Below are positions 7,147 to 28,734 of a DNA stretch of 35,025 bases, one piece after another; position 1 is the first letter of the stretch, and every line of letters begins with the position of its first letter. The stretch comes from Candidatus Hydrogenedentota bacterium. GTDB taxonomy: Bacteria; Hydrogenedentota; Hydrogenedentia; Hydrogenedentales; CAITNO01. The notes under the pieces were generated by a model, which was not told where the DNA came from, did no database searches, and was given only the letters and a program-made list of their open reading frames with translations. The position numbers and the translations under genes were made by a program. The stretch is from positions 1-35,025 of the forward strand of contig JAKOTZ010000121.1 in the NCBI GenBank assembly GCA_029776995.1. Direction: 5' to 3'.

Positions 7147-9549
7147 TCAGCGTTTTCCTTTCCGGATAATAATTTTGTCGCCAATATTGATCCGGCTTTT
7201 AGAAGTCATGTTGTTCCATTTCAGCAGGTCATCCAGCGAAACGCCGTATTTTTTTGCAATCATGTAGGGGTTTTCGCCTTTGGCCACAACGTGGATAATT
7301 TCTTCCCCAGGGGAATCGGCAGGCTCAGTCGGTGACTCTTTATCCGGTTCCTGACGCACCTTCTCCGGTTCCGGTGCTGTTTTCCCCTTTCGGATAAGAA
7401 TTTTGTCACCGATATTGATCCGGCTTTTAGGGGTCATGCGGTTCCATTTCAGCAGGTCATCCAGCGAAACGCCGTATTTATTCGCTATGACTGATGGGTT
7501 TTCGCCTTTGGCCACAATATGGACAATTTCCCCTTCCGCAGACGGGGTGGAGCCGGGCTGCGTTTCTTTACTCGGCTCCTGAAGCGCGCGCCCGGAGGCT
7601 GTAGTTGCTTTGGCGGAGTCGGGCGCAGACTCTTGGTCGTCCTTTTGCGTCTGTTGCGCAGGCGCGGCGGCCTGAGCAGAAACAGGCTGCGGCGGAACAG
7701 GAGTCCCGGACCGGCCATCCAACCGAGTCACAGCCGCCGCGGATGTGCCTCGGGCGTAAATTTCCAGACATTTCGCGTAATGCTGCGCCAGCGACGCGAG
7801 GGCGGCCGCCTCGATTTTTCTTCCCGCAGCGGCGAGATTCTCAGCATTCTGAACCAGTTTTTTGAGATCGTTGAGTACCTGTTCAGCTTTGACTGCCCCT
7901 CCCTGAGCGCCGGGTTGTGTCGCGGTCAGGTACATGGTCTGCATGCGTTCGGTCTCGGCGATCATGTCGGTCACAGGTTCAAGGAAAAGCTCTCCACGGC
8001 CTTCTTCGACCACCGCCAAAGCCCGCGCCAAAGACAGAAATCCCCGGGAAAGCACTCCTGCAGATACAGGATCAACCTCCCCCACCGCGACAGCCGTTTC
8101 AAACCGGGATATCTGCCGCAACAAATCGATATAGCGCGCCCGCGCTCCCTCTCCCGCCGGACTTTTTCGCACGGATTCAAGCAGCGCGCGGGTATCTCCG
8201 GACAGTAACGATCCGGCCGGTTCAGGCATGGACAGCATCGCAGAAATGATCTCCTCGGCGCGGCTGGCCGCCGCCCGGGCCAGGATATTCCCTCCCGTTC
8301 CGCGAACAATTAAAGGAGTTCCCGCCAGTTGAAGGTTCAGGTTTCCCTCCACGGGATTTCCCGTGTCCGGCAGGGCATTTCCGAAATGATCCATCACCGC
8401 AACGGAAACCGCCCCTTCGAGCGGTAAGGTCACAGGGACCGGATCACCCGACTGTCCGGGCCGCCAGAAAACCAGCACCCAGTCTGCTTGGTTTCGGAAA
8501 AGCAGGGCGGAAACGCCTTCCGCCAGGTTCAGGCGCCCGACATAGTCCACCCCGCTGAACAGCGCGCCAAAGACATTAAACAGCGCCGCGGCCGGGGTAA
8601 AACCCGTTTGAGGGGCATAAACAGCCGCCGCGGGAAGATGCACACTGGAAACGCCGGCCGCCATCATTTCTAGGATGTCCCACAGCAGAGCGTCGGTTGG
8701 TCGGTCCGCTATCCAGGCCGCGTCCGTAAGATCCACGGCAACGGGAAGAGTCGTCCAGGCCAGCCTAGCGCGTTCTTCGGGTAAAGGCGGAGCCGGCAAC
8801 CGAAGCACCATCCCCGAGGCCAGCGGCGCCGCCGGACCGTTTATGCTCCCCAGCGCATCCTCCACGGAATCAGCAACAGCCCAAAGCGGCAAGTCAGATT
8901 TGTCCCGAATTTTCTGGAAAAGGGCGGTTGAGGCCGCCGGCAACTGAATACCCACCCATGTATCAGACACCCTGAGTCTACCCGATTCAGCTGTCAGCGC
9001 CGCAGCGGCCTCGTCAGACAGGTCCAGCCATGCCTTCAGTCCCACTCGGGCAAGACCGGCTTCCGCCTGACGCAAATCCGCATTGGACAGTGACACGCGC
9101 ACGGATCTCGCGCCAACCGTTTTCAGGGCATGTTCCAAACCGGCCGGCCACGCGCCGGCTGCCACGGAAATGCCCAGGACCGACCTGGATATCTTTGTCG
9201 GCCGATCGACCCGACATAATCCAACTTTTTTGGTAAAGGACCCTCCGTTCACCGCCACAGTCACCGTGACCGCGTAAAATCCGCGCTCGGCCGGAGCGCC
9301 TTTGAGGGCGTACCACCGTTCCACGCCGGGCGGGAGCCGGAGATCGCCCAGGTCCATGTCCCACGCCTGCCCACCGTCATCTACAAGCGAAACGCTGACC
9401 CGGACGTCTGCGGGCTCCGGAACCTTCAGGCTGAGAATGAGGGGGTCATCCAGGTAAACACATGGAACCGGCTGGTCAGGCGCGACAATAATCTCGGGCC
9501 CCTCCGCGGCCGCGGTTAACACCAGTAAAAGACAACCGATGAAGCGCAT
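7147..9549 (-). CDS. Large secreted protein with two C-terminal LysM domains
   Basis: An 800-residue protein not recognised as a whole. It starts with a short signal peptide (MRFIGCLLLVLTAAAEG), followed by a beta-rich region to about residue 130. Residues about 130-430 alternate strands and helices (LGISVAAGAWP, VRVSLSNADL, LKAWLDLSDE, VAVDLTDAAWI) in a way that resembles a TIM-barrel glycosidase-like fold, but I see no clear catalytic pair. A helical region follows, then a Pro/Gln/Ala-rich linker. Two LysM domains end the protein, at about 672-722 and 749-800, each with the KYGVSLDDLLKWN core. LysM domains bind peptidoglycan or other N-acetylglucosamine polymers, so it is probably anchored to the wall in the periplasm. 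It follows the hydrolase gene by six bases and precedes pfkA by 17. Confidence 0.72.
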   Translation of the reverse strand: MRFIGCLLLVLTAAAEGPEIIVAPDQPVPCVYLDDPLILSLKVPEPADVRVSVSLVDDGGQAWDMDLGDLRLPPGVERWYALKGAPAERGFYAVTVTVAVNGGSFTKKVGLCRVDRPTKISRSVLGISVAAGAWPAGLEHALKTVGARSVRVSLSNADLRQAEAGLARVGLKAWLDLSDEAAAALTAESGRLRVSDTWVGIQLPAASTALFQKIRDKSDLPLWAVADSVEDALGSINGPAAPLASGMVLRLPAPPLPEERARLAWTTLPVAVDLTDAAWIADRPTDALLWDILEMMAAGVSSVHLPAAAVYAPQTGFTPAAALFNVFGALFSGVDYVGRLNLAEGVSALLFRNQADWVLVFWRPGQSGDPVPVTLPLEGAVSVAVMDHFGNALPDTGNPVEGNLNLQLAGTPLIVRGTGGNILARAAASRAEEIISAMLSMPEPAGSLLSGDTRALLESVRKSPAGEGARARYIDLLRQISRFETAVAVGEVDPVSAGVLSRGFLSLARALAVVEEGRGELFLEPVTDMIAETERMQTMYLTATQPGAQGGAVKAEQVLNDLKKLVQNAENLAAAGRKIEAAALASLAQHYAKCLEIYARGTSAAAVTRLDGRSGTPVPPQPVSAQAAAPAQQTQKDDQESAPDSAKATTASGRALQEPSKETQPGSTPSAEGEIVHIVAKGENPSVIANKYGVSLDDLLKWNRMTPKSRINIGDKILIRKGKTAPEPEKVRQEPDKESPTEPADSPGEEIIHVVAKGENPYMIAKKYGVSLDDLLKWNNMTSKSRINIGDKIIIRKGKR
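7150..7305 (-). repeat. LysM repeat copy 2
   Basis: Encodes residues 749-800 of the LysM protein. It is nearly the same as copy 1 at the DNA level over long stretches, so the two arose by a fairly recent internal duplication or are kept alike by recombination. Confidence 0.75.
7384..7536 (-). repeat. LysM repeat copy 1
   Basis: Encodes residues 672-722 of the LysM protein. It shares the core KYGVSLDDLLKWN and the ending SRINIGDK with copy 2; a 26-residue Pro/Glu/Lys-rich linker separates them. Confidence 0.75.
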
Positions 9550-10329: not shown

Positions 10330-11688
10330 ATGAAACGCAGGGAATTTTTACAGCGGGCAACCGCGGTGGCTCCCATGATTGTTTCGGCCAGGGTGCTGGG
10401 GCTGGACGGACCGCCTCCCAGCGAACAGGTCCGGGTGGGGCTGATCGGCCTGGGCAGCCGCTGCCGGGAAATCGCCAAGACTGCGGTCGGCATCCCCGGA
10501 ATGCGCATCGAGGCCGTGTGCGACTGTTTTGAGCCGCGCGTCAGCGCCGCAATGAAATCCATGGGGGAAGAACGGGGCTGGCGCCCGTACGTGGATTTCC
10601 GGAAAATGATCGAGCAGGAAAAACTGGACGGGGTGATGGTGGAAACAACCACCCACGCGCGGGCATGGGTTACCTGCCACGCCATGGCGATGGGAATGGA
10701 TGTCTATATTGAAAAACCGATGTGCCTGACCATATCCGAAGGGCGGCATATGGTCAGGCTGGCCCGGAAACACAACCGGGTAACCCAGGTGGGCACGCAG
10801 CAGCGGTCCATGCCGCTGAACAACTGGGTCAGCGACCTGGTGAAAAGCGGCGCACTGGGCAAGATCCGGGAAGTGCTGGTCCCGAATTATGTAGGTCCGC
10901 TGGAATGGGACAACCGCCCGGGCGAACCCATGCCGGAAGGCGGCCCCGAGGGCTGGTGGGACGTGTGGACGAACCAGGCCCCGATGCGTCCCTATCACAG
11001 TGAACTGCAAATGGGCTGGGCGAAATGGGTAGATTATGACGGCGGAGGCATCTCGTTCGGCGTAAGCGGCTGGGGAACCCACAGTTACGACCAGGTCAAC
11101 CGAGCACTGGGCACTGACGAGACCGGCCCGGTAAAAGTAATTCTGGAAGAAGCTGTCTCCGACCAGCCGGCAGGGAAATACGAACGCACGCCCGATCCAA
11201 AGGAAACTGGACTGGTTTATTATCCCATGGCCCAGGCGGCACATGGTCCCCGGGCGCGGGTCACGTTTATTTTCGCGGATGGGACGCCCATGAAATGCCA
11301 CCTGGACGGCGATTTTGGGCCAGGTTTGGGTGGCATTTTCCGGTTTGATGCCGGATATCTGGACATCAACCGGGATAAAATAGACTCAGATATCCCGGAG
11401 GTGCTTGACCATCCGGATAAGCCGGCGCCGCTGAGTGTTCCGGAGACGCAGCCGCACATTGAAAACTGGATGCAATGCATTAAAAACCGACAAAAATGCA
11501 CTGCGGATATCGAGTACGGCCTTCGGGCGACCACGCTGTGTGAACTGGTGAATATTGTCCGCCGTGTAGGCCGGGTCAATGAAGAACTGGAATGGGATCC
11601 CGTGGCAGAACGCTTCAGGAACTGTGAAGAAGGGAACGCGCTGCTCTCCCGTCCACGCCGCACGGGTTACGAGCTTCCGGACGCTTAA
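10330..11688 (+). CDS. Tat-exported Gfo/Idh/MocA family oxidoreductase
   Basis: A 452-residue NAD(P)-dependent sugar oxidoreductase. The start at 10330 gives a twin-arginine signal (MKRREFLQRATAVAPMIVSA), so the protein is probably exported folded with its cofactor. The Rossmann nucleotide site is VGLIGLGSRCRE, and the catalytic EKP motif is at residues 128-130 (YIEKPM). The C-terminal half is the usual alpha/beta substrate domain with an extended insert (WWDVWTNQAPMRPYHSELQ, GGGISFGVSGWGTHSYDQV) seen in relatives from Planctomycetes-like genomes. It is followed 22 bases later by the DUF1080 gene. Members oxidise or reduce sugar hydroxyls, often at C3 of glycosides; the substrate here is unknown. 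Confidence 0.9.
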   Translation: MKRREFLQRATAVAPMIVSARVLGLDGPPPSEQVRVGLIGLGSRCREIAKTAVGIPGMRIEAVCDCFEPRVSAAMKSMGEERGWRPYVDFRKMIEQEKLDGVMVETTTHARAWVTCHAMAMGMDVYIEKPMCLTISEGRHMVRLARKHNRVTQVGTQQRSMPLNNWVSDLVKSGALGKIREVLVPNYVGPLEWDNRPGEPMPEGGPEGWWDVWTNQAPMRPYHSELQMGWAKWVDYDGGGISFGVSGWGTHSYDQVNRALGTDETGPVKVILEEAVSDQPAGKYERTPDPKETGLVYYPMAQAAHGPRARVTFIFADGTPMKCHLDGDFGPGLGGIFRFDAGYLDINRDKIDSDIPEVLDHPDKPAPLSVPETQPHIENWMQCIKNRQKCTADIEYGLRATTLCELVNIVRRVGRVNEELEWDPVAERFRNCEEGNALLSRPRRTGYELPDA

Positions 11689-11710
11689 AAATACAAACAA
11701 GGGAAAACCG

Positions 11711-12460
11711 ATGAAAAAGAATGTTCTGTATTTTCTTTGTTTTTCGTTTTTTGTATCTGTTTTTATTTTTTATTCGCCGTTTGGGTTCTCGGATGATGGA
11801 ACTGGATTCCGCAGCATGTTCAACGGCCGGGATCTGACAGGATGGGATGGGAAGCCCGGCGAGTGGTGGGTGGAAGACGGGGCAATCACCTCACAGAGCA
11901 CGGATGAAAACCCCTGTATAAAACACCACTACCTGTTCTGGACCGAGGCGGAACCCGGGGACTTTATCCTGCGTTTTGAATTTAAGCTGGTGGGGGGCAA
12001 TTCAGGCGTGCAATTCCGTAGTGAGCGGCGGGAAGATTATGACATCTGGGGATACCAGGCGGATATGGAAGACGGCGAACAGTGGACCGGATGCCTCTTC
12101 CAGCATGACCGGGGAGGGGTAGTCATGCGGGGGTTCGACGCGGTAATCCGCGAGGACGGGAGCCGGGAAGAAAAGGCCATTGGCGATCCCGCTGATCTGC
12201 TGAAACAGGTACGAAAACACGAGTGGAACCGGTATGAAGTCACGGCCATTGGAAACCGGATCACCCTGAAAATCAATGACGTGGTCATGTGCTCGGTGGA
12301 AGACCATGACCGCACCTACAGCCGGTCCAAAGGTGTAATCGCCCTTCAGATGCATCCCGGCCCGCCCATGAAGGTCCAATTCCGGAACCTCCGGATTAAA
12401 ATTCTGGACGCCGCGCCGCAGACGCCCAAGGAATCCCCCGGGCAGCAGACTGGAAAATAG
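11711..12460 (+). CDS. Secreted DUF1080 (3-keto-disaccharide hydrolase) protein
   Basis: A 249-residue protein whose N-terminus is a signal peptide (MKKNVLYFLCFSFFVSVFIF, cleavage likely near GFS-DDG). The rest is one PF06439 concanavalin-like beta-sandwich: FRSMFNGRDLTGWDG at the start, GDFILRFEFKLVGGNSGVQF in the middle, and KVQFRNLRIK at the end, all hallmarks of the family. PF06439 is named for hydrolysis of 3-keto-disaccharides. AAGGGA lies just upstream of the ATG. The pairing with a Gfo/Idh oxidoreductase fits a two-step scheme: oxidation of a glycoside at C3, then cleavage of the keto-glycoside outside the cytoplasm. The signal peptide coding region is much richer in A and T than its surroundings. 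Confidence 0.9.
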   Translation: MKKNVLYFLCFSFFVSVFIFYSPFGFSDDGTGFRSMFNGRDLTGWDGKPGEWWVEDGAITSQSTDENPCIKHHYLFWTEAEPGDFILRFEFKLVGGNSGVQFRSERREDYDIWGYQADMEDGEQWTGCLFQHDRGGVVMRGFDAVIREDGSREEKAIGDPADLLKQVRKHEWNRYEVTAIGNRITLKINDVVMCSVEDHDRTYSRSKGVIALQMHPGPPMKVQFRNLRIKILDAAPQTPKESPGQQTGK

Positions 12461-12479
12461 GACCTTACGGCACAGGCGG

Positions 12480-13691
12480 TCAGGGTTTAACCTCGATCGC
12501 TTCCGGTTCCAGCTCGAGGTGAAGGTCAATGGGCGTGGTGTCGGCCATCATCTCATCCCATGTGACAGCGGTTTGATGATAGGCGGCCATGCGCCCGAGG
12601 ATACAGGTCAGGTTGCTTTCCACAGATACGTCCATGTTCTGGATGGCTTTTCCCGCCGCCACGGTATCGCAGAAGTTTTTGATGTTGGTAACCGCGCCTT
12701 CCTGGTAGATGTTGGTGGTCAGCCCGCCGGGCCATTCTTCCTTCAGGCTGGCAACGCGGACCGGTCCGCCGTAATGGGTATCCACGGTGCCCTCGGATCC
12801 GTACACGCGGGCACAGAGGTCGGCATCGAACCGAACGGCGCACTGCAGGCCGCTGAAATCGACCCGCACGCCGTCGGGATACTCGAAAGCCACGATAAAG
12901 TGGTCCCAGCAGTCACCCACGTCCACACGGCCTTTGCGTCCGCCGGTGCCCATGGCGCGCAGGGGATGGGCATTCAGGATCCAGTTGGTAACGTCGATCA
13001 CGTGAATATGCTGTTCGACGATGATGTCCCCGGAAAGCGCCTTGTCAAATACCCAGTTCCGGAGGCGTTCTCCGGGAGAACCCGGGGGGGCCTGCCGCTG
13101 AAGGCGCTCACAATGGTAAAAAGTCTTGCCGAACACCGGGAAACCGATATGCCCGTTTCGGACACGCTGAATGGCTTCCTGGTAAAGGGGATCAACCCGG
13201 GCCTGAAAATCAACCCAGCAGCAACGGTCGGGGTGCTCTTTCGCGAGCCGCACCGCCCTGAGGCATCCCGCCACGTCAACAGCGACAGGTTTGGCCATGT
13301 AGACATGTTTTCCGGCGTTGAGGGCCGCTTCAGCCTGATCCACGTGGAAACAGGGCGGTGACTCGATGGCGACGGCGTCAATATCATCCAGGGCCACCAG
13401 TTCCCGATAGCCGTCCAGGCCGACAAAACGCCTATTTTCGGGCACATCGAGGTCTTTTCCAGTCTGATACGTCCGAAACCGGAAAGGATCATGGATGGCG
13501 GTAACTTTACAGGGGGCAAATTCCTGGAAAAGCCGGCCGATCCACCGCCCCCTTCCGCCGCAGCCGATGAGGCCGAGGGAAACTTTTGCGTTGGCGTCAT
13601 AGGTGAACGCCGCGCGCGGCGCGACAATCGTAAACGCGGCCAGCGATGCCGCTGTTCTCATGAAATCCCGGCGTCCCGGCGTGTTTTTCAT
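12480..13691 (-). CDS. Second Tat-exported Gfo/Idh/MocA family oxidoreductase
   Basis: A 403-residue protein with a twin-arginine-type signal (GRRDFMRTAASLAAFTIVAP), a Rossmann motif GLIGCGGRGRW and a catalytic motif written AKP (VYMAKPVAVD) where most relatives have EKP; the lysine is kept. The substrate domain contains WVDFQARVDPLYQEAI and HIHVIDVTNWILN, typical of exported family members. AAGGGAG lies seven bases before the ATG. It is the last gene of a minus-strand operon behind the sugar isomerase-like gene (48 bases away) and converges with the DUF1080 gene with 19 bases between stops. Together with the first oxidoreductase it could form an oxidising and reducing pair; that is inference. 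Confidence 0.9.
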   Translation of the reverse strand: MKNTPGRRDFMRTAASLAAFTIVAPRAAFTYDANAKVSLGLIGCGGRGRWIGRLFQEFAPCKVTAIHDPFRFRTYQTGKDLDVPENRRFVGLDGYRELVALDDIDAVAIESPPCFHVDQAEAALNAGKHVYMAKPVAVDVAGCLRAVRLAKEHPDRCCWVDFQARVDPLYQEAIQRVRNGHIGFPVFGKTFYHCERLQRQAPPGSPGERLRNWVFDKALSGDIIVEQHIHVIDVTNWILNAHPLRAMGTGGRKGRVDVGDCWDHFIVAFEYPDGVRVDFSGLQCAVRFDADLCARVYGSEGTVDTHYGGPVRVASLKEEWPGGLTTNIYQEGAVTNIKNFCDTVAAGKAIQNMDVSVESNLTCILGRMAAYHQTAVTWDEMMADTTPIDLHLELEPEAIEVKP

Positions 13692-13739
13692 AAGGTTTCT
13701 CCCTTTTGGTGTCAGCTGTTTGCCTGCATTTCCCAGGCG

Positions 13740-14612
13740 TTACGCGAGGGCGTTGAACGCGGCTTTGGCCCGTTCAAGGTTAGTGCGAAAATCGGATACT
13801 GTATCCCCTGACGGGGAAGCGGTTTCAAGGATAATCCAGCCGTTATAGCCGATGTCTGCAATAGCCTTAACAGCGGCGGCGAGATCCACCTTACCTTCGG
13901 TCAGCATCTTGCCTCCGTCCTTGAAATGGATCTGCGCGATGCGGCTGCCGAGGGAACGGATTTCAGCGGGCACGTCATAGCCGTTGTAGGTGGAGTTTCC
14001 GATGTCATAGTAGATGCGGACCGAGTCATCGCCGACCATATCCAAGAGCCGCAGGTTATCTGCTCCGGACAGGGTATTTTCAATGGCCAGGGTAACACCC
14101 GCGTCTTTGGCCCGGGAAGCGGCGCCGCGAATCCGCTCCGCGGCGACTTTCATGGCGTCCTCTTTAAGTTTTCGACCTTTACGCAGGTCCCCTTTCCCGA
14201 AGAACGCGAGCAGCATTACCGGCGCGTTCAGGTCTTTGGCGGCATCGATGGTCTGCTCGAGCCACGCGGGACCGCGTTCGTCTTCAGCCAGGGGCGCGTT
14301 ATTCAGCAACCCCATGGCCACGGAGGAGACAACGAGACCCGTACGGGCCATGGCTTCTTTGTATTTCTCCCGCAGGGCCGGATCGGCGATGGCGAGGATA
14401 TCCGCCGGGTCACCGGCAGATATTTCCACACCGTTCAGTCCGATTTTCAGGGCGAGGTCCAGGGCTTCCGGATCCAGGGCTTTACCCATGGACCAGTCAC
14501 ACGCGCCAAACCGAATCCGGCGGTCATCCCCCCATCCTTTCCGGATCCAGACGGCCGCGCCACAGGCAGCGGCAACCTGCCCGATAAAGGTTCTGCGAGA
14601 TATGTTATTCAT
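13740..14612 (-). CDS. Tat-exported sugar phosphate isomerase/epimerase-like TIM barrel
   Basis: A 290-residue protein of the xylose-isomerase-like (AP_endonuc_2) fold, with a twin-arginine signal at its N-terminus (SRRTFIGQVAAACGAAVW). The barrel shows strands such as NGVEISAG, VTLAIENT, YYDIGNS and IAQIHFKDGG; the Glu, Asp, His and late Glu (WIILETA) are likely metal ligands. Relatives isomerise sugars or, in C-glycoside deglycosidases, eliminate an aglycone from 3-keto-sugars. The ATG at 14612 is supported by AAGGAG seven bases upstream. It overlaps the histidine kinase stop by four bases (ATGA), so the two are probably translationally coupled. Export implies a non-phosphorylated substrate. 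Confidence 0.87.
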   Translation of the reverse strand: MNNISRRTFIGQVAAACGAAVWIRKGWGDDRRIRFGACDWSMGKALDPEALDLALKIGLNGVEISAGDPADILAIADPALREKYKEAMARTGLVVSSVAMGLLNNAPLAEDERGPAWLEQTIDAAKDLNAPVMLLAFFGKGDLRKGRKLKEDAMKVAAERIRGAASRAKDAGVTLAIENTLSGADNLRLLDMVGDDSVRIYYDIGNSTYNGYDVPAEIRSLGSRIAQIHFKDGGKMLTEGKVDLAAAVKAIADIGYNGWIILETASPSGDTVSDFRTNLERAKAAFNALA

Positions 14613-17476
14613 TTTTTCTCTCCTTTTTGGTCCCGCTGATCGCTGATTTTCAGGCATTCAAAGACTTTGTCGATGAGCTGAGCGGCCCGGAACGGTTTTT
14701 GCAGGAAGTGGGCCGGCGGATCGAAATCCGGCAGGCCGGCAATAAAGCGGTCACTGAACCCGCTGAAGAACAGGGCGGGAATTCCAGGACGAATGAGACG
14801 CATCTCCCGCAACACCTCTTCGCCGTTCATGCCGGGCATCGTGTAATCGAGAATGACCAGTGCATACTGTTCAGGATTTTCCCGGAAACGTTCCAGCGCC
14901 TGAGGGCCGTCCTCGGCCAGAATAACCTGGAACCCGTGCCGGGTCAGCATGCGTTCAGCGATAAGCCGGGGACCATCTTCATCGTCCACGACAAGAACAG
15001 TGCCGCGGGATAAACTGGGCGCCGGAACCTGGAGCGAAGTTTTGGATACGGGAGCCTCCTCTTCCTCCAGAGCATCGGCATCCGCGGCAACGGGAAAGGC
15101 GAGCATGAAACGGGTCCCTTCGCCTGGCCTGGACCAGACGTTTATAAGCCCCTGGTGAGCGCGCATGATCCCGATGACGGCCCCGAGACCGAGTCCCCGC
15201 CCGGCAAATTTGGTGGTAAAGAAGGGATCAAAAATTTTGGCCAGGGTATTGTCATCCATGCCGCATCCATTATCGATCACTTCCAGGATGACGAAATTTC
15301 CGGGGCGGGCATCCGCAGCGACGCGCCACCGGGGAAATTCCCCATCATCGATCCACCGCTGGCTGGTTCGGAGGATCACTTTACCGTCCCGCCGGTTCAT
15401 GGCTTCCGCGGCGTTGGTCAGAAGGTTCATCACGACCTGGCGCAACCGTATTGGATCGCCCCGCACGGGAGATAAGGACCGAGCCAGTTCCATGGAAAGC
15501 GATGCCCTACGCGCCAGAGTGATTTCCATGAGTTTTGTGATTTCCCGCACAAGCCGGTTGAGGTCAATTGCCCGGAAATTCATGGGCGATTTTCCGGCGT
15601 AGGCCAGGAGCTGGGCGCACAGGTCCGCGGCGGTACGGGCACCTTTTTCCACTTCCTGCAACCGTTCGTGAACCGGAGAATTCGGCGGCACCTCCTGCAG
15701 TAGCATGTCAACATTGCCGAGAATAACCGTCAGAAGGTTATTGAAATCGTGGGCAACCCCCCCCGCCAGCAACCCGATGCTCTCGAGTTTGTGGGCCTCC
15801 TGGAACTGGATTTCGAGTTCGCGGCGCTCGGCCTCCGCCCGGATCCGGTCGGAAATATCCCGCACCAGGGCCAGCATATAATCGCCGTCCGCAACCCGCA
15901 CCGCGGAGAAACGGAACTCGACCGGCAGGAGCGTACCGTCCTTTTTTCGCTGGTGCGCCTGAGCCGTGAACACGGTCCCCTGATCCCGAAGCCTCTGCAT
16001 AACCATACGATACGTTTCGGGGTTGTACTGCGGGTCAATATCGGCAACGGTCAGAGACAGCAGTTCCTCGCGGGTGTAGCCGAGCGACCTGCAGGCCTGC
16101 TGGTTAACATCGATAATTCTGCCGTCATAATCGGTCAGGAAAAAGGCATCCGCGACGTTTTCCACCAGGGTTCTGAAGCGCTGCTCGCTCTCAAGCAGGG
16201 CTTTTTCGGCCATTTTCCGTTCAGTAATGTCCTGGATCAGGCCGTCATAGGCCACGAGCGCGCCATCGGCATCGAAGTGACAGACGGGGGTGTTTCGGAC
16301 CCACCTCAGCGAGCCGTCTTTCCGGTAGATGCGGTGCTCGATGGGGTCGGCTTTCCCCTCCCGCAGGAGCGCTTCAATCTGGGCGCGGACCCGATCGCGG
16401 TCCTCCGGATGCACCATGTTAATCCAGAGCCAGGGATCCCGCTGAAAATCTTCGAGCATATACCCGGTAATTTTTTCACAGAGGGGGCTGTGGATGGTCT
16501 GGGCCGGATGGCCGTCAATGACCCGAACGGTATAAATATAGTCCGTGATGCTTTCGGTAAGCCTCCGGTACCGTTTTTCGCGCTCCCGGATTTCGTTTCG
16601 GGCCTGGATACGGTCAAGCAGCGTCCTGAGCAGGGTCGCGATGCCCTCAGCAACGGCGCGGGCGTCAGGCGGTATTTCGGGATGGTGCAGGCTCGCCAGC
16701 AACAGCAGGGCAACCGGCCGGCCGTTGTGAATAACGGGAAGATAGACGGCTGATTTTATGCCTTCCCGCATATACGCAATGTACCGGGGATGTTCGAGGT
16801 CCGACTGGTTAAGCATAGCCAGCGCGCCGCGCCGGAGGATTTCCATCTCGGAAGAACGATAATTGATCAGGCTGAGTTCGGCCAGGAAGGCGCGTGAGAA
16901 TTCCCGGGCGACCAGCGGGACCAGTCCACCTTCTTCATCCGGCACCAGCGCGCATACGCAGTCAAATCCGGTGCGCCGGACCAGGATATCAGACAATTCC
17001 CCAAAGGCCTGTTCAAGGGTTTCCACTGCACCGAGCGCCGAAGCAATATCTCGCTGGATTCTCAACAGCTCAACAGAACGGCGTTCAGCCGTATTTTCCT
17101 GCACGAACAGCCGGATATATTCCTCGCCGGTATCGAGGCGTCCGCCCATGCATCCGTCGGCAATAAGCCACTTGAATTTTCCCGACAAAGTGCGTACGGG
17201 GTATTCGTGGCCTTTGATTGCCCCCCTTTCCCGAATGAGCGCGCGAATCTCGCCCGTGGGCCGGATGTACTGCACGGTGGACTGAATGGATTTTCCGATG
17301 AGGGCTTCCGGGGAATCGAAGAACGATCCCAGCTCAAGAATCTGCCAGAGCGCTTCGTTGAAGTAGAGAATCTCCCCGTCAAAGGTGTAATAGATCGCCC
17401 CGATTCCCATGAAATCAAGGGCTTCCTGACACGATTGCGCCACTTCCTGGCGGGTTAACGCTTTAGGTTCGGCCAA
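14609..17476 (-). CDS. Hybrid sensor histidine kinase (PAS-GAF-PAS-PAS-HisKA-HATPase-REC)
   Basis: A 955-residue soluble-looking kinase with no evident membrane span. In order: a divergent PAS domain (about 15-135), GAF (150-295), two PAS/PAC units (310-425 and 433-560, with RKDGSLRWVRN and QRKKDGTLLPVEF), HisKA with phosphoacceptor H576 (GGVAHDFNNLL), an ATPase domain (NLLTNAAEA, DNGCGMD, FDPFFTTK, GRGLGLGAV) and a C-terminal receiver domain with D877 (LVILDYTMPGMNG). The start is TTG at 17476, with GGGAG ten bases upstream and a promoter just beyond. It heads an operon with the isomerase-like and oxidoreductase genes, suggesting it senses a related signal. No separate response regulator is in the window, so the output is unknown. 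Confidence 0.93.
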   Translation of the reverse strand: MAEPKALTRQEVAQSCQEALDFMGIGAIYYTFDGEILYFNEALWQILELGSFFDSPEALIGKSIQSTVQYIRPTGEIRALIRERGAIKGHEYPVRTLSGKFKWLIADGCMGGRLDTGEEYIRLFVQENTAERRSVELLRIQRDIASALGAVETLEQAFGELSDILVRRTGFDCVCALVPDEEGGLVPLVAREFSRAFLAELSLINYRSSEMEILRRGALAMLNQSDLEHPRYIAYMREGIKSAVYLPVIHNGRPVALLLLASLHHPEIPPDARAVAEGIATLLRTLLDRIQARNEIREREKRYRRLTESITDYIYTVRVIDGHPAQTIHSPLCEKITGYMLEDFQRDPWLWINMVHPEDRDRVRAQIEALLREGKADPIEHRIYRKDGSLRWVRNTPVCHFDADGALVAYDGLIQDITERKMAEKALLESEQRFRTLVENVADAFFLTDYDGRIIDVNQQACRSLGYTREELLSLTVADIDPQYNPETYRMVMQRLRDQGTVFTAQAHQRKKDGTLLPVEFRFSAVRVADGDYMLALVRDISDRIRAEAERRELEIQFQEAHKLESIGLLAGGVAHDFNNLLTVILGNVDMLLQEVPPNSPVHERLQEVEKGARTAADLCAQLLAYAGKSPMNFRAIDLNRLVREITKLMEITLARRASLSMELARSLSPVRGDPIRLRQVVMNLLTNAAEAMNRRDGKVILRTSQRWIDDGEFPRWRVAADARPGNFVILEVIDNGCGMDDNTLAKIFDPFFTTKFAGRGLGLGAVIGIMRAHQGLINVWSRPGEGTRFMLAFPVAADADALEEEEAPVSKTSLQVPAPSLSRGTVLVVDDEDGPRLIAERMLTRHGFQVILAEDGPQALERFRENPEQYALVILDYTMPGMNGEEVLREMRLIRPGIPALFFSGFSDRFIAGLPDFDPPAHFLQKPFRAAQLIDKVFECLKISDQRDQKGEKK
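14620..14625 (-). promoter_or_regulatory. Ribosome binding site inside the kinase gene for the isomerase-like gene
   Basis: AAGGAG on the minus strand lies seven bases before the ATG at 14612, within the last codons of the histidine kinase. It fixes the start and supports coupling. Confidence 0.65.
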
Positions 17477-17499
17477 GGAAAATAATCTCCCTATAAATG

Positions 17500-17528
17500 A
17501 GTATAATGGTTGCCAGATGCCGTTGCAA
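17500..17528 (-). promoter_or_regulatory. Sigma70-type promoter for the histidine kinase operon
   Basis: On the minus strand TTGCAA (17523-17528) and TATACT (17500-17505) are spaced by exactly 17 bases; the -10 matches at five of six positions. Transcription would start near 17493, giving a leader of about 17 bases before the TTG start at 17476. Confidence 0.55.
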
Positions 17529-17538
17529 GTGGTATGCT
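17510..17538 (+). promoter_or_regulatory. Sigma70-type promoter for the ThuA-like gene
   Basis: TTGCCA (17510-17515, five of six matches) and TATGCT (17533-17538, four of six) are spaced by 17 bases. It overlaps the opposing kinase promoter almost entirely, so the two cannot easily be occupied at once. Confidence 0.45.
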
Positions 17539-17581
17539 GATACAGTTGCCGGCAACAGCGTCCCGGCGAGGAGAATCGTAT

Positions 17582-18379
17582 ATGAAAATTCGGGTTGCCT
17601 TATTGGCGTTACTCGTGTCAGTCCTCCCGTGCGTGAGCGGCGTGGCTGGAGATGACACCGTCGGGAATCCGTCCGCGGCGGCAGCGCAGAAAGTCCGGGT
17701 TCTGGTGGTAACGGGAGGCCACGGATATGATGAGGAACCCTTTGAAGGGCTTTTCCGGAGCATGCCATCCGTGGAAGCCACGTTCAAACCGGTCAACCGC
17801 GCGTTCCGGGACCCGGACAAATGGCAGTGGGACGTGATGGTGCTGTACCACATGCCTCCGACGATATCCGAGCAGGACCAGGCCGCGCTGCTTTCACTGC
17901 TGGACCGTGGTGTTGGGGTGGTGGGCCTGCACCACGCGATTGCCGCATGGAACAAATGGCCGGAATACTGGAAAATCATCGGTGCCCGGTATTTCCTGGA
18001 AGACGCGGAAGAAGACGGGAAACCGTGGCCGCGATCGACCTATCAGCATGATGCCGATATTATTTACCGTCCGGTAAAACCGGAACACCCGGTCACGGCC
18101 GGCCTTGACGCGTTTACCCTGCATGACGAGACCTATAAAGGTTACCGCATGGAACCGGACGTAGAGGTCATCCTGGAGGCGGAACACGAAGCGGCTCAGC
18201 GCGAGGCGGGATGGGTCCATCAGTACAGAAAGTCCCGGGTGTGCTATATCCAACCCGGGCACGGTCCGTCCTGTTTCGGCGACGCGAATTACCGGAAACT
18301 GGTGGAGCAGGCGATCCTGTGGGCAGCGGGACGGACCGGCAGTAATCCGAAAGAGGAGGCTCGTACCGGGGAGAAGTAA
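17582..18379 (+). CDS. Secreted ThuA-domain protein
   Basis: A 265-residue protein. The start at 17582 gives a clear signal peptide (MKIRVALLALLVSVLPCVSG) and has AGGAG eight bases upstream; a longer form to 17510 would cross the promoter. The class I glutamine-amidotransferase-like ThuA fold shows VRVLVVTGGHGYD, the LLDRGVGVVGLHHA turn, TLHDETYKGY and YIQPGHGP. In Sinorhizobium meliloti ThuA works with the Gfo/Idh protein ThuB in trehalose use through 3-keto intermediates. Export here and the nearby oxidoreductases suggest a related role outside the cytoplasm. No cysteine nucleophile of a true amidotransferase is apparent. It is transcribed divergently from the kinase operon. Confidence 0.9.
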   Translation: MKIRVALLALLVSVLPCVSGVAGDDTVGNPSAAAAQKVRVLVVTGGHGYDEEPFEGLFRSMPSVEATFKPVNRAFRDPDKWQWDVMVLYHMPPTISEQDQAALLSLLDRGVGVVGLHHAIAAWNKWPEYWKIIGARYFLEDAEEDGKPWPRSTYQHDADIIYRPVKPEHPVTAGLDAFTLHDETYKGYRMEPDVEVILEAEHEAAQREAGWVHQYRKSRVCYIQPGHGPSCFGDANYRKLVEQAILWAAGRTGSNPKEEARTGEK

Positions 18380-18517: not shown

Positions 18518-20404
18518 ATGCAGTACAGTCATTTCGGTGAATGGCTGGTAAAGAAGGGTATTATCACCCCGGCCCAGCTGGAAGAGGCCCTCCGCCGCCA
18601 ACAAAGCGGAGGCATGGGTAACCGAAAACTGGGCGAAATCCTGGTTCGGCTGGGGTACATCAGCAAGAGCCACATCACGGAAGGCCTTGCCGACCAGCTG
18701 GGGATGGAAATTGTCTCGCTTGCGGACCGGGACATTCCGCCCCGCATTCTAAGCCAGGTGCCTGGGGAAATCGCGACGCTTTACCGGGTGGTGCCGATCG
18801 CGGAGAAGGGGGACACGCTGGTGGTGGCAACGGCCGATCCCACCAACATCAACACAATAGATAATCTGCAGCGCCTTCTGGAGCGGCCGATCGAGACCGT
18901 GCTGACCATGCCGGAAGAGATCACGGAGGCGCTGGGCCGGTATTACTCGCACCGGCAGGAGACGGTGGAATCTCTGCTCTCGACGGCAAGCAGCGCGTCG
19001 ACGATGAGCACGCTGACCTCGATGTCGAACGTGAGCTCAATGGCGGACGGATCGCTGGCCAGCCTGCATTCAGTCAGTTCGCAAAGCATGGAAAGTATCG
19101 GGATGGACGAGCTGGAGGAAGCAGCCAGCGGCGTCCAGACCGCATCGGGAGGCGAAGACGCCGGGGATGAAAACAACCCGGTAGTGAAATACGTGCACCA
19201 GCTGATCATGGAGGCGTTCCGCCTCCGGGCCAGTGATATCCACGTGGAACCCGCGAAAACTACCCTGAAGATCCGGTACCGGATTGACGGCGTGATGCAG
19301 GAAATGCCCTCGCCGCCCAAACGGGCGCAGGCGTCGGTGATTTCGCGCCTGAAGATCATGGCGGGAATGGACATATCGGAGCGGCGGGTACCCCAGGACG
19401 GGCGCATCAAGATCACGCTCGGGGGCAAAATGGTGGACCTGCGGGTTAACACGCTTCCGTCGGTATACGGCGAAAGCGTGGTGATGCGTATTTTGGACAA
19501 AAGCGGCCTGATGCTGGGCCTGGGGCAGCTGGGCTTCAACGCGGAACACCAGCGCCAGTGGGAAGAACTGCTGAATTCAACCACGGGGGTGGTACTGGTT
19601 ACCGGCCCGACAGGCTCGGGCAAAACGACGACGCTTTACGCTTCGCTGCACAACCTGAACAAACCGGACGTTAAGATTATTACGGTGGAAGACCCGGTCG
19701 AGTACCAGCTGACCGGAATCAACCAGGTGCAGATCAACCATGATATCGGGTGGAACTTCGCGCGCGCGCTGCGGGCCATGTTCCGCCAGGACCCGGATAT
19801 CGTGATGGTGGGTGAAATCCGCGACCGGGAAACCGCGGAAATCGCGATCAAGGCGGCGCTGACGGGACACCTGGTCTTCTCGACGCTGCACACGAATGAT
19901 ACGGCGAGTTCTTTCACCCGCCTGATCGATATCGGGATCAAACCGTTCCTGGTGGCTTCGGGCGTACGGGCCATCCTGGCGCAGCGGCTGGTCCGGCTGA
20001 TCTGCAATTCCTGCCGGGAGCGGCACATACCGACGGAAGACGAAAAGGAACTGCTGGGCCTGAAGGTCAACTGGGACGAAGTGAAGGTGTACCATGGCCG
20101 GGGCTGTGAAATGTGCGCCGAGAAAGGATATATCGGCCGCCAGGGCGTATACGAACTGCTGCTGACCAACGATGAAATCCGGTGCCTGGTCATGAAAGGC
20201 GAAAGCGCGGGAGTAATCCGCCGGGCGGCGCGGCTGAACGGCATGATCACCATGCGCGAAGACGCGTGGCTGAAGGCCTGCCGCGGCATCACCACGCTGG
20301 AAGAAGTGATTAAGCGGACCCGGGTGGACGAGCCGCTGCATCGGGATGCCGCCATGCCCGCGGCGGTCGGTTCAGGCAACGGAAACGGACATGAAACCCA
20401 TTAG
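18518..20404 (+). CDS. PilB/GspE-family assembly ATPase (first copy)
   Basis: A 628-residue cytoplasmic hexameric ATPase that powers pilus or pseudopilus extension. An N-terminal MshEN/T2SSE_N-type domain (about 1-150, LGEILVRLGYI, ADQLGMEIVSL) is followed by an unusual Ser/Met/Thr-rich linker at about 150-200. The motor domain has Walker A GPTGSGKT at 363-370, the Walker B region DPDIVMVGEIRD at 425-436, a His box (GHLVFSTLHTNDTA) and a zinc tetracysteine (C496, C499, C530, C533). It is first in the operon, directly behind a promoter. PilB and GspE cannot be separated by sequence alone; the following pilT favours a PilB-like role. A 117-base gap with hairpin sequence separates it from pilT. 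Confidence 0.92.
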   Translation: MQYSHFGEWLVKKGIITPAQLEEALRRQQSGGMGNRKLGEILVRLGYISKSHITEGLADQLGMEIVSLADRDIPPRILSQVPGEIATLYRVVPIAEKGDTLVVATADPTNINTIDNLQRLLERPIETVLTMPEEITEALGRYYSHRQETVESLLSTASSASTMSTLTSMSNVSSMADGSLASLHSVSSQSMESIGMDELEEAASGVQTASGGEDAGDENNPVVKYVHQLIMEAFRLRASDIHVEPAKTTLKIRYRIDGVMQEMPSPPKRAQASVISRLKIMAGMDISERRVPQDGRIKITLGGKMVDLRVNTLPSVYGESVVMRILDKSGLMLGLGQLGFNAEHQRQWEELLNSTTGVVLVTGPTGSGKTTTLYASLHNLNKPDVKIITVEDPVEYQLTGINQVQINHDIGWNFARALRAMFRQDPDIVMVGEIRDRETAEIAIKAALTGHLVFSTLHTNDTASSFTRLIDIGIKPFLVASGVRAILAQRLVRLICNSCRERHIPTEDEKELLGLKVNWDEVKVYHGRGCEMCAEKGYIGRQGVYELLLTNDEIRCLVMKGESAGVIRRAARLNGMITMREDAWLKACRGITTLEEVIKRTRVDEPLHRDAAMPAAVGSGNGNGHETH

Positions 20405-20416
20405 CCCTGCCGGAGA

Positions 20417-20457
20417 GGGATGAAATCCCCACTGGACAGGCTGCTGTCCGGTTGGGG
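20417..20457 (+). other. Alternative RNA hairpins between the first ATPase and pilT
   Basis: The RNA could form a small hairpin, GGGAT-GAA-ATCCC (20417-20429), or a larger one, CCCC plus ACTGGACAG (20427-20439) with CTGTCCGGT plus GGGG (20444-20457), loop GCTG and one bulged T. The two share bases 20427-20429 and exclude each other. There is no U-tract, so this is not a standard terminator. Confidence 0.4.
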
Positions 20458-20521
20458 CGTGATGATACAGTTGACGCAAAACACGAAATAATGGAAGACG
20501 GTAATACAGAGGAAGACCTAT

Positions 20522-21631
20522 ATGCCATATGAGATGGTAAGCCTGCTGCGGATGCTGGTGGACCGGGACGGGTCGGACCTTCACCTCGCGGTGGACAACC
20601 CCCCGGTAGGCCGCGTGCACGGCCATTTGCAGTATTTTGGAGAAAACCCGCTGACACCGGAAGACACCGAACGGCTGATGAAGAGCATCGCGTCGGTGGA
20701 CAACCAGCAGGAACTGCAGGAGGTCGGAGGTTCCGACTTCGGTTTCGCGTTTGAGGACGTGGCACGGTTCCGGGTATCGATCTTTAAACAGCGCGGTTAC
20801 GTGGGGCTGGTACTCCGCCTGATTCCGCGCAAAATCCTGACGTTTGAGGAAATCGGGCTGCCGCAGTCACTGAAAGAAGTAATCACCCAGCCGCGCGGGC
20901 TGATCCTGGTAACGGGACCCACGGGATCGGGCAAATCGACCTCCCTGGCGACGATGATCGACTGGATCAACGAGAATTTTGACCATCACATCATCACCAT
21001 TGAAGACCCGATCGAATACTACCACCGGCACAAAAAGAGCATCATCACCCAGCGCGAAGTGGGCGTGGACGTGCCAAGTTTCGCGGAGGCGCTCCGGCGG
21101 GCGCTGCGGCAGGACCCGGACGTGATCCTGGTGGGCGAAATGCGCGACCTTGAAACGATCGAAGCGGCCGTGACCGCGGCTGAAACGGGCCACCTGGTGT
21201 TCGGCACGCTGCACACGACCGGCGCGGTGCGTACCATCGACCGGATCGTGGACGCCTTCCCGACGAACCAGCAGGAACAGATCCGGACCCAGCTGGCGGG
21301 CAACCTGAAGGCGGTAATATCGCAGACCCTGATTCCGCGGAAAAGCGGATTCGGACGCGTGGCGGCTTTCGAAATCATGATCACCACGCCGGCCATCCAG
21401 AACCTGATCCGCGAGAACAAATCATACCGCATCACGTCGGCCATCCAGACCGGCCACAAGTACGGCATGAACCTGCTCGACGAGCACCTGCTGGCGCTGT
21501 ACCGGAAGGGCATCTGCCGGTACGAGGACGTATTGGCCAAAGCCCAGAACGCGGAAGAATTCGAACAGCAGTGCAAGGCGCTGGGGCTTCCGACCGGAGA
21601 GGGCGCGGAAGCGCGGCGCGCGGGCGCGTAA
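20522..21631 (+). CDS. pilT: Type IV pilus retraction ATPase PilT
   Basis: A 369-residue cytoplasmic ATPase of the PilT/PilU group. It has the short PilT N-domain ([18 protein letters not shown]), Walker A GPTGSGKS at 132-139, the Walker B region [12 protein letters not shown], the His box [13 protein letters not shown] and the PilT C-terminal motif AIQNLIRE in place of the common AIRNLIRE. It lacks the tetracysteine zinc site found in the two flanking GspE/PilB ATPases, as expected. PilT disassembles the pilus, pulling subunits back into the membrane. Its position inside a pseudopilin operon suggests the fibre made here can be retracted. It is followed 20 bases later by the second GspE-like gene. 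Confidence 0.93.
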
Positions 21632-21651
21632 CGTAAAGGAATCGAACACTT

Positions 21652-23418
21652 ATGCGAGGCACAGCCGCATCAGCAACCTCCCAGCGCCGAACCAAGCCGC
21701 TGGGCGAAGTGCTGATTGAGGCGGGGATTTTGACACCCATCCAGCTGGACGAGGCGCTGCAGCGGCAGCGCCTTACGGGGGATATGCTGGGCCGGACGCT
21801 GGTTTCCCTCGGATTCTGCACGGAGCAGGACATCATCGACGCGCTGGCCGTGCAGCAGGGCATGGAACGCGTCGACCTTAACAAGATCAAGATCCCGGAA
21901 GAGGTGCTGAAGTCCATCTCGGGGGACGTGGCGCGGTTTTACAACGTCATTCCGATCCGGCTGAAAGACGGCGAACTGACCGTGGCGATGGCGGATCCGC
22001 TGAACCTGCAGACGCTGGACGACCTCCGCCAGATCACGGGCCTGCGGGTCCGGGGCGCGGTAAGCAATCCCGAGGACGTCTCGGCAGCCTGGAAGAAGAA
22101 TTACGCCTACGAGAGCGAGTCCGTGGGGCAAATGCTCGAGGAGCTCAAGGAACGGGTTGGGACCGAAGAGCTTACCCTCGAGGACATGGGCATCCAGAAG
22201 ATTATCGAGGACACCGAAAATCTGGTGGAGCTCGCCCAGCAGCCCGAAGTAATTAAGATTGTCAACCTGATCCTGCTGATGGCGGTGCAGCGCCGGGCGT
22301 CAGACATTCACTTCGAGATCTACGAGGAAGATTTCCGGGTACGGATCCGCATCGACGGGGTGCTTCACGAGGTGGTGCGTCCGCCGAAAGCGGCGCACCT
22401 GGCGATCGTGTCGCGCATCAAGGTGATCTGCAATATGGACATCGGGGAGCGGCGGCTCCCGCAGGACGCCCGGATCGAAATGAAGATCGGCGACAGCATC
22501 ATCGACGTGCGCGTGGCGACGCTGCCGACGCTGTTCGGGGAAAACGTGGTGATGCGTATCCTGGACCGGACGGCGGTCCGGATCGACCTCGCCCAGCTGG
22601 GCCTGAGCGAAGACACGTACAAAAAAGTAGTCAACACAATTCAGAAACCGAACGGGATTATCCTGGTGACGGGCCCGACGGGATCCGGTAAAACGACCAC
22701 CCTCTACGCGTGCCTGAACATCCTGAACGAACCGGGGGTTAAGATCATCACGACGGAAGACCCGGTAGAGCTTCAGATTGAACGGCTGATCCAGTGCCAG
22801 GTGCACGAGGAGATCGGGCTGACCTTCGCCGCGTGCCTGCGCGCGATTCTGCGCCAGGACCCGGATATCGTGATGGTAGGTGAAATCCGCGACCTGGAAA
22901 CGGCGCAGATCGCGGTGGAGGCGTCGCTGACGGGCCACCTGGTGCTGAGCACGCTGCACACCAACAGCGCGCCGGAAACCATCACGCGACTGCTGGACAT
23001 GGACGTGGAGCCGTTCCTGATCACGGCGTCGCTGGAGGCCGTGCTGGCGCAGCGGTTGGTGCGCACGCTCTGCCGCCACTGCCGGGAACGGTACCGCCCG
23101 ACGGAGGATGAAATGGCGCGTCTTGGGGTACCTCCGGCGTGGCGGCGGGACCCGAATTTTGGACTGTTCCGTCCGAAAGGCTGCGCGGCGTGCGACTACG
23201 TGGGGTACATGGGCCGAATCGGATTGTACGAGTTCCTGGCGGTGGATGAGCGGATCCGGGAGATGATCCTGGACCGGGCCATGGCGTTTGAAATCCGGCG
23301 GTACGCCCGCAAACACCAGGGCATGCGGGTGCTGCGCGAGGAAGGGATTATCAAGTGCGTGAAAGGGATCACCAGCGCGCAGGAGGTGATCGACCACACG
23401 GACCTTTACGAGGATTAA
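21652..23418 (+). CDS. PilB/GspE-family assembly ATPase (second copy)
   Basis: A 588-residue paralogue of the first ATPase. It has an MshEN-type N-domain (LGEVLIEAGILT, GRTLVSLGFC, ALAVQQGMERVDL), no Ser-rich linker, Walker A GPTGSGKT at 341-348, the Walker B region DPDIVMVGEIRDLETA, a His box (GHLVLSTLHTNSA) and a zinc tetracysteine (LCRHC and GCAAC). The motor is clearly the same family as the gene at 18518 but diverged, so the two are probably not a recent duplication. It is 13 bases before the platform-protein gene, which makes it the best candidate for the partner ATPase of that protein. It energises assembly from the cytoplasmic face of the inner membrane. Confidence 0.92.
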   Translation: MRGTAASATSQRRTKPLGEVLIEAGILTPIQLDEALQRQRLTGDMLGRTLVSLGFCTEQDIIDALAVQQGMERVDLNKIKIPEEVLKSISGDVARFYNVIPIRLKDGELTVAMADPLNLQTLDDLRQITGLRVRGAVSNPEDVSAAWKKNYAYESESVGQMLEELKERVGTEELTLEDMGIQKIIEDTENLVELAQQPEVIKIVNLILLMAVQRRASDIHFEIYEEDFRVRIRIDGVLHEVVRPPKAAHLAIVSRIKVICNMDIGERRLPQDARIEMKIGDSIIDVRVATLPTLFGENVVMRILDRTAVRIDLAQLGLSEDTYKKVVNTIQKPNGIILVTGPTGSGKTTTLYACLNILNEPGVKIITTEDPVELQIERLIQCQVHEEIGLTFAACLRAILRQDPDIVMVGEIRDLETAQIAVEASLTGHLVLSTLHTNSAPETITRLLDMDVEPFLITASLEAVLAQRLVRTLCRHCRERYRPTEDEMARLGVPPAWRRDPNFGLFRPKGCAACDYVGYMGRIGLYEFLAVDERIREMILDRAMAFEIRRYARKHQGMRVLREEGIIKCVKGITSAQEVIDHTDLYED

Positions 23419-23431
23419 AAGGAGTCAGGCC

Positions 23432-24682: not shown

Positions 24683-24687
24683 GGTAC

Positions 24688-24747
24688 AATTCAGTTGACA
24701 GGCACACGCGGACACGCAGGATCCGGCACGGGACGCCGGCCTGAATT
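24688..24747 (+). other. Nested inverted repeat upstream of the major pseudopilin gene
   Basis: AATTCAG (24688-24694) pairs perfectly with CTGAATT (24741-24747). Inside it CCGGC (24723-24727) pairs with GCCGG (24735-24739). A third small hairpin, GCGG-AAAA-CCGC (24764-24775), sits just before the AAGGAG ribosome binding site at 24783-24788. The leader could affect transcription read-through, processing or translation of the gene at 24798. Confidence 0.4.
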
Positions 24748-24797
24748 CATAAGGCAACATAACGCGGAAAACCGCAAGAAAGAAGGAGCAACGCGGA

Positions 24798-25760: not shown

Positions 25761-25780
25761 TGACGGGAATCGGACATGAC

Positions 25781-25811
25781 GGGGGAAAGGCGGACCGGCC
25801 GCCTTTCTCCC
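25781..25811 (+). terminator. Strong hairpin between the GspG-like and GspH-like genes
   Basis: GGGGGAAAGGCGG (25781-25793) pairs with CCGCCTTTCTCCC (25799-25811) over 13 pairs, one of them G-U, around the loop ACCGG. Only three T residues follow (25812-25814), so termination would be partial at best. The position after the major pseudopilin gene suits a read-through attenuator or an mRNA-stabilising 3' structure. Confidence 0.5.
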
Positions 25812-25829
25812 TTTCGGATACTGAGCGGC

Positions 25830-26792: not shown

Positions 26793-27211
26793 TGGAATAC
26801 CGCGGAAGACATCGCAGAGGCGGAAAGGGCAGGCGCGCGGGCTTTACCCTGCTGGAAGTGGTGGTGGCGCTGGCGATTCTCGCCGGGGGCATCGTGGCGG
26901 TTATGGCCCTGTTCCCGACGGCGCTGTACCGGCAGCAGCAGGCATCGGAACGTTCAACCATCGCGTCGCTGGCCCGGGCGAAGCTGAGCGAGGCGCGGGT
27001 TTTCGGGCCCACGTCGGCGGCAACCGGCTGGCTGGAACAAAACGCCTATCACCTGATCGAACAGGGGGCGCGGGCCTACACGGTATATGATTCGTGGCGC
27101 GCGAACGTCACGGCAGCGGCAGGTATGCCGGGGCTTTACCGGGTCACCTTCGTGGTGCGGCTGAACAGCGGCCAGACCGAGGAATTCGTCACGTATGTCA
27201 CGGAACGGTAA
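26792..27211 (+). CDS. Minor pseudopilin, GspI-like
   Basis: A 139-residue protein of normal size for GspI. The basic leader (RRGGKGRRAG) precedes FTLLEVVVALAILAGGIV with Glu at mature position 5, and the helix runs on through ALYRQQQASERSTIASLARAK, the usual GspI pattern. A beta-rich C-terminal part (YRVTFVVRLNSGQTEEFVTY) follows. The ATG at 26792 overlaps the upstream stop as TGATG, and its own 3' end overlaps the next gene by 17 bases, so the pseudopilin genes are tightly coupled. In type II systems GspI is the core of the tip complex that recruits GspJ and GspK; that order is preserved here. Confidence 0.87.
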   Translation: MEYRGRHRRGGKGRRAGFTLLEVVVALAILAGGIVAVMALFPTALYRQQQASERSTIASLARAKLSEARVFGPTSAATGWLEQNAYHLIEQGARAYTVYDSWRANVTAAAGMPGLYRVTFVVRLNSGQTEEFVTYVTER

Positions 27212-28733: not shown

Positions 28734-28734
28734 G

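Follow-up and report, generated by a model that had tools for sequence, protein, structure and literature searches.

The window considered here is the whole 35,025-nucleotide stretch of contig JAKOTZ010000121.1 from a Candidatus Hydrogenedentota bacterium, and its positions 10330-18379 carry genes for two Gfo/Idh oxidoreductases (GFOA and GFOB), a DUF1080 protein, a xylose-isomerase-like TIM barrel (below, the barrel), a hybrid sensor kinase and a ThuA-domain protein. The enzyme genes are two conserved modules, A (GFOA with the DUF1080 gene) and B (the barrel with GFOB), normally apart and not one unit, because linkage within each pair is kept in relatives while linkage of A to B is rare. On balance, the two adjacent modules appear to be exported, with A a diverged member of the systems that open glycosides by oxidation, elimination and hydration, and B a separate keto-sugar pair that would close the cycle in this genome. 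Oxidation-elimination chemistry is already published (for BT2156-BT2159, the Agrobacterium tumefaciens OGE/HYD operon, the levoglucosan operon and Caulobacter DUF1080), and by analogy the window may be seen as a diverged, exported, two-module version of a known pathway in another phylum. Non-hydrolytic sugar breakdown, recognized recently in gut Bacteroides, would thereby reach Planctomycetota and the uncultured Hydrogenedentota, in two sharply defined gene pairs.

Two conserved gene pairs

GFOA (10330..11688; PF01408 and PF19051) and the DUF1080 gene (11711..12460; PF06439) are on the forward strand, 22 bases apart. GFOB (12480..13691; PF01408 and PF22725), the barrel (13740..14612; PF01261, 119.1 bits) and the kinase (14609..17476) are all on the reverse strand. 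The kinase, of 955 residues with PAS, GAF, HisKA, HATPase_c and Response_reg domains, had no place in an initial annotation of this DNA; its stop codon overlaps the start of the barrel as ATGA, and it is translationally coupled to the barrel, which it also adjoins, at 73%, in locus L113 of the sister genome. A hydropathy scan found no transmembrane segment in it. The ThuA gene (17582..18379, forward strand; PF06283, 91.3 bits; start taken as the first Met downstream of the preceding frame) is separate, being divergent from the kinase and followed by type IV pilus genes. Pfam assignments of the four enzyme genes and the ThuA gene all exceed curated cut-offs, and the grouping of two Gfo/Idh, a DUF1080, a barrel and a ThuA gene within 8 kb, as initially annotated, is borne out. 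A single operon of the five is ruled out by their strands, which give two convergent pairs and a separate ThuA gene, and by linkage in relatives.

These families are abundant in the genome, with 37 Gfo/Idh, 12 DUF1080 and 16 barrel matches. When about 36 Gfo/Idh, 10 DUF1080, 16 barrel and 6 ThuA genes were placed at random 200,000 times among an assumed 2,900 genes, a six-gene stretch with all five families arose at a rate of 5e-6, and without ThuA at 9e-4; the rates are post hoc, with approximate ThuA and DUF1080 counts and the gene number assumed. Conservation is a stronger test. Among 59 other genomes, where only matches among those listed could enter the counts, GFOA occurs in 43, GFOB in 41 (excluding paralogues at 34-38% identity, as in G012, G053 and others, and including one G004 fragment, at a contig edge, of 51%), the barrel in 37 and a close DUF1080 orthologue in 21, with all four enzyme genes present in 15. 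GFOA and DUF1080 are at most 2.5 kb apart in 16 of the 21 genomes with both close orthologues, and the barrel and GFOB are as close in 22 of 34. Co-occurrence elsewhere, put forward with the initial annotation as a check, therefore holds for each pair and fails for the five genes together. DUF1080 and GFOB are within 12 kb in none of the 16 genomes holding both, though many relatives' contigs are short and absent linkage may reflect fragmentation.

Stretches of about 19.5 kb with pair A and without B number six (L047, L048, L066, L069, L071 and L079), and pair B is found without A at L118, L147 and L149. After removal of 16 duplicate loci, a same-strand DUF1080 gene adjoins GFOA in 35 of 69 GFOA loci, Planctomycetota included. 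The oxidase (Gfo/Idh), lyase, hydratase and reductase families stand together in the window and elsewhere as two unlinked pairs, in fragmented assemblies. Neighbours conserved beyond the pairs are generic only (ABC ATPases and pilin-like proteins), with no substrate readable from the context. Separately, a contig filed under a Synechococcaceae metagenome-assembled genome (L196) carries the 5' part of a gene for a GFOA-like protein (60% identity), through either a binning error or transfer.

Module A and its probable export

The DUF1080 protein scores 130.8 bits against PF06439, where the gathering threshold is 26.8, and its predicted model has a pLDDT of 88.8. Relatives by fold or sequence include BT2157 and entries whose titles speak of 3-keto-glycoside eliminase/hydratase or 3-keto-2-hydroxy-glucal hydratase: 9fbe (Z 20.2, root-mean-square deviation (rmsd) 2.3, 174 residues), 8rr2 (Z 18.9, rmsd 2.4, 175 residues) and 8tda (Z 18.8, rmsd 2.4, 175 residues). 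Within the same Z range is 8v31. The top row of the fold search is the uncharacterized BT3469 (4jqt; Z 22.6, rmsd 2.8, 182 residues), and shortly below the DUF1080 rows come CBM66 (Z 17.9, rmsd 2.4, 154 residues) and GH16-type folds at a Z of about 15, so that fold alone leaves function undecided. At the level of residues, one histidine is more informative. Over the 27 aligned residues, 9fbe differs from 8rr2 at a single histidine, which is Asn in 9fbe; with numbering from the structural alignment, the position would be residue 275, and 9fbe the H275N variant, described in PMC13273386 as deficient in hydration. His215 of the window protein aligns to this histidine and is kept in 18 of 18 orthologues. 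On this alignment and the model, the protein is a probable 3-keto-glycoside eliminase/hydratase.

The best NCBIfam match of GFOA is NF058561 (BT_2158_fam), at 105.8 bits over residues 2-241 only. Among solved structures, its profile finds 8tdf (5e-30) and 8tdh (2.5e-28) ahead of the next relative (8e-17) by 11 orders of magnitude, and these two we take to be dehydrogenases of the non-Koshland glycan (3-keto) pathway of Nasseri et al. 2024. All 27 aligned GFOA sequences share the twin arginines, D65 of the Rossmann fold, E128-K129 and H251. By sequence, GFOA is probably a glycoside 3-dehydrogenase. The second Rossmann strand ends in Asp in all 27 GFOA and all 21 GFOB sequences, a residue that at this position usually accompanies NAD. 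This weakly favors NAD over NADP in both oxidoreductases, and to that extent goes against the bound NADP that had been expected. As to how exported enzymes would renew a cofactor, a route that is redox-neutral overall could let the incoming glycoside and the outgoing 3-keto sugar cycle enzyme-bound NAD(H).

Export signals had been assigned to all five proteins, and all five are there. The N-termini of GFOA, GFOB and the barrel have an RRxF motif followed by a hydrophobic stretch, as in twin-arginine (Tat) substrates, and TatC is encoded in the genome; the DUF1080 and ThuA proteins have Sec-type hydrophobic stretches. Both arginines are invariant in the aligned orthologues (27 GFOA, 21 GFOB and 22 barrels). 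A strict Tat motif, RRx[FL] plus an aliphatic residue, Met or Ala, is present in 37 of 37 GFOB, 24 of 24 barrel and 53 of 65 GFOA sequences; among the remaining 12 GFOA, 11 have RR at the start and the one at L177 could not be judged. Behind the RR stretch, 11 of the 65 GFOA sequences have a lipobox-like Cys (weak in two of them), versus none of the 37 GFOB and none of the 24 barrels. Since the RR motifs are invariant in aligned orthologues and a subset of GFOA has a lipobox, export of these enzymes is probable; a Tat lipoprotein signal, as predicted in part of the GFOA family, would be hard to explain on a cytoplasmic enzyme. With such signals conserved, the functioning of an NAD-dependent enzyme outside the cytoplasm becomes directly testable. 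GFOA loci of the lipobox type, possibly encoding Tat lipoproteins, include L054, L056, L063, L066, L067, L068, L077, L079 and L168.

Module B and the readings weighed

The barrel, modelled at a pLDDT of 92.6, matches ketose 3-epimerases by fold (Z 25-28) and, at Z 25.4 (rmsd 2.5, 240 residues), the 3-keto-D-glucoside 4-epimerase YcjR. Its residues E178, D203, H229 and E263 are invariant in 22 of 22 sequences, and this quartet we take to be the metal ligands of the family. The fold search does not separate epimerase, lyase and hydratase, and sequence likewise provides no discriminator; barrels of the BT2156 and OGE types are absent among the matches listed in that search, which does not exclude them. 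In GFOB, K134, D68, E226 and H230 are invariant (21 of 21), the catalytic Lys being retained, while the Glu of the EKP motif is replaced by Ala in GFOB and all 20 aligned orthologues (21 of 21). The best NCBIfam models are inositol 2-dehydrogenase for GFOB (76.4 bits, cut-off 355) and myo-inosose dehydratase for the barrel (43.4 bits, cut-off 290), both scores lying far under what membership of an IolG/IolE pair would entail. The role of module B is uncertain, and its placement in the reduction/hydration half of the route is made with low confidence; GFOB may be a reductase of 3-keto sugars or a partner dehydrogenase. Proteins annotated as sugar phosphate isomerases in A. tumefaciens are described as working as O-glycoside eliminase or hydratase (PMC10628242).

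The families, the export signals, the conservation of catalytic residues and that of each pair are shown by these data; the substrate, the order of reactions, the retention of NAD and a cooperation of A with B are what we infer, as follows. Outside the cytoplasm, GFOA with tightly held NAD+ would oxidize C3 of a glycoside. The DUF1080 protein would then eliminate the aglycone, hydrate the resulting 2-hydroxy-3-keto-glycal, or do both, freeing a 3-keto sugar. On the keto sugar, the metal-dependent barrel could act as lyase, hydratase or epimerase and GFOB could supply reduction; in this genome, reduction of the 3-keto sugar by module B would complete the cycle, with no net redox needed outside the cell.

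Several findings weigh against this. GFOA and GFOB are within 12 kb in just two (G002 and G005) of the 34 genomes with both. Among 24 GFOA-bearing genomes from beyond Hydrogenedentota, mostly Planctomycetota according to their titles, a GFOB match at E <= 1e-40 is present in 15 and reaches orthologue level (at least 42% identity) in just four; A therefore occurs without B. At 105.8 bits, GFOA is far under the NF058561 equivalog cut-off of 750, and its match to 8tdf covers about half of the protein. The top models for GFOB and the barrel are inositol dehydrogenase and dehydratase and ketose epimerase, with no model of a 3-keto pathway among them.

Some of these findings would fit a module B independent of A, an exported pair that either oxidizes and dehydrates inositol, like IolG/IolE, or performs C3 oxidation, C4 epimerization and reduction, like YcjS/YcjR, leaving A alone to cleave 3-keto-glycosides. 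The inositol models of the pair, far under cut-off as they are, the epimerases among the barrel's fold rows, YcjR included, the infrequent A-B linkage and the absence of B from most A-carrying Planctomycetota all point that way. Against it, A and B co-occur above expectation in the 59 relatives (34/9/7/9; Fisher p 0.013, with no correction for kinship), and the four families jointly match BT2156-BT2159. We regard independence of B as a serious alternative, though a rather less probable one than closure of the cycle by B.

The initial proposal, in which the five genes with ThuA among them make up a single extracytoplasmic 3-keto-glycoside pathway, is improbable. Their co-location in the window and the low random-placement rate speak for it, as does the sister genome, G001, where the order GFOB-barrel-kinase-ThuA is kept and an assembly gap falls exactly at the place of GFOA and DUF1080. 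However, ThuA is near GFOB in one of the 30 genomes with both, this sister genome from its own genus, and near GFOA in none of 27, and on these counts it was rejected as a conserved partner; it is probably a bystander without part in the modules. From the proposal of 3-keto oxidation and elimination, what stands is GFOA with DUF1080, through the 8tdf/8tdh relationship and the histidine; the five genes as a unit do not, with ThuA linked only within the genus. In G001, contig L203 ends inside the LysM gene and L113 begins inside GFOB, the gap corresponding to MBL, GFOA, DUF1080 and part of GFOB; loss of module A there was considered and dropped, MBL, GFOA and DUF1080 falling in the gap and being unscorable.

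It is very improbable that the DUF1080 protein hydrolyzes or binds a polysaccharide in the ordinary way, as a xanthanase or a CBM66-like module would, beside oxidoreductases with unrelated sugar chemistry. For this reading, the nearby CBM66 and GH16-type fold scores and a tie of DUF1080 to xanthan described in Thermogutta (PMC5673643) can be cited, but it fits poorly with the kept BT2157 eliminase/hydratase histidine and the conserved adjacency of DUF1080 to a BT2158-like dehydrogenase.

Extending the two-module reading, it is conceivable, if rather unlikely, that Hydrogenedentota and Planctomycetota run oxidation, elimination, hydration and reduction wholly outside the cytoplasm, some of it on Tat lipoproteins anchored in the membrane. 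The oxidoreductases would keep NAD(H) enclosed and relay hydride between the glycoside coming in and the 3-keto sugar going out. If so, hydrolase-resistant glycans would be opened without any free cofactor.

Related systems and neighboring genes

An alternative glycan breakdown by Bacteroides thetaiotaomicron BT2156-BT2159 is reportedly the subject of Nasseri et al. 2024, and BT2159 we take, partly from the name of its NCBIfam model, to be a Gfo/Idh protein. The window shares with that cluster a barrel, a DUF1080 and two Gfo/Idh proteins, the DUF1080 histidine and, for GFOA, nearest relationship to the BT2158 family. It differs in its two convergent pairs, as a rule unlinked, in Tat motifs throughout and in a hybrid kinase alongside. 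Its DUF1080 protein is about 25% identical to BT2157, and GFOA falls short of the NCBIfam cut-off. The E. coli YcjS/YcjR pathway presumably combines a Gfo/Idh and a barrel acting on 3-keto-glucosides (YcjR structure 6wn6), but by epimerization, not cleavage, and with no DUF1080. Glucose-fructose oxidoreductase (GFOR) and GH109 are exported Gfo/Idh enzymes with bound cofactor, which gives redox-neutral chemistry by Gfo/Idh proteins beyond the cytoplasm a precedent; their match to GFOA is to the N-terminal domain only and is weaker than that of 8tdf.

PMC10434189 gives BT2156-58 the annotations sugar phosphate isomerase/epimerase, DUF1080 and Gfo/Idh, and BT2158 with either BT2156 or BT2157 is described as converting glucosinolates (PMC12385236). 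Deletions of BT2157 and BT2158 are described as giving no defect on raffinose-family sugars, which argues against a broad role in Bacteroides (PMC11501099). Like the route suggested for the window, the A. tumefaciens GlycDH/AtOGE/AtHYD/Gfo operon uses Gfo/Idh proteins and isomerase-like barrels to oxidize, eliminate, hydrate and reduce. Its lyase and its hydratase, however, each bear the annotation sugar phosphate isomerase, and, as described, the operon has no DUF1080 (PMC10628242). The same four steps are ascribed there to the levoglucosan operon, which in Bacillus smithii has an anhydrosugar as substrate, with DUF1080 unmentioned in the descriptions concerned (PMC7676230, PMC10628242). A periplasmic 3'-ketolactose hydrolase is proposed for Caulobacter, where oxidation by LacABC would precede cleavage by the DUF1080 protein CCNA_01705; the dehydrogenase, membrane-bound LacABC, is not a Gfo/Idh (PMC9007349). 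No paper on this system in Hydrogenedentota was found in the open-licence literature, most subscription journals being outside that scope.

Further Gfo/Idh-barrel neighbors occur in the same genome on contigs C46 and C196, and another Gfo/Idh-DUF1080 neighbor pair on C257. Upstream in the window, a gene at 7147-9549 encodes a secreted protein of 800 residues that carries two LysM repeats at its C-terminus and has no named domain across the first 630 residues. After ThuA comes a type IV pilus/type II secretion cluster (18518-28733; PilB-, PilT- and PilC-like proteins and pilins), the first genes of which also follow pair B in sister locus L113 and in L132, from another family. Last, a 2191-codon open frame on the forward strand (28453-35025) continues past the window end; from about codon 110 onward its product resembles a secreted protein that has a leader segment and may be associated with pili.

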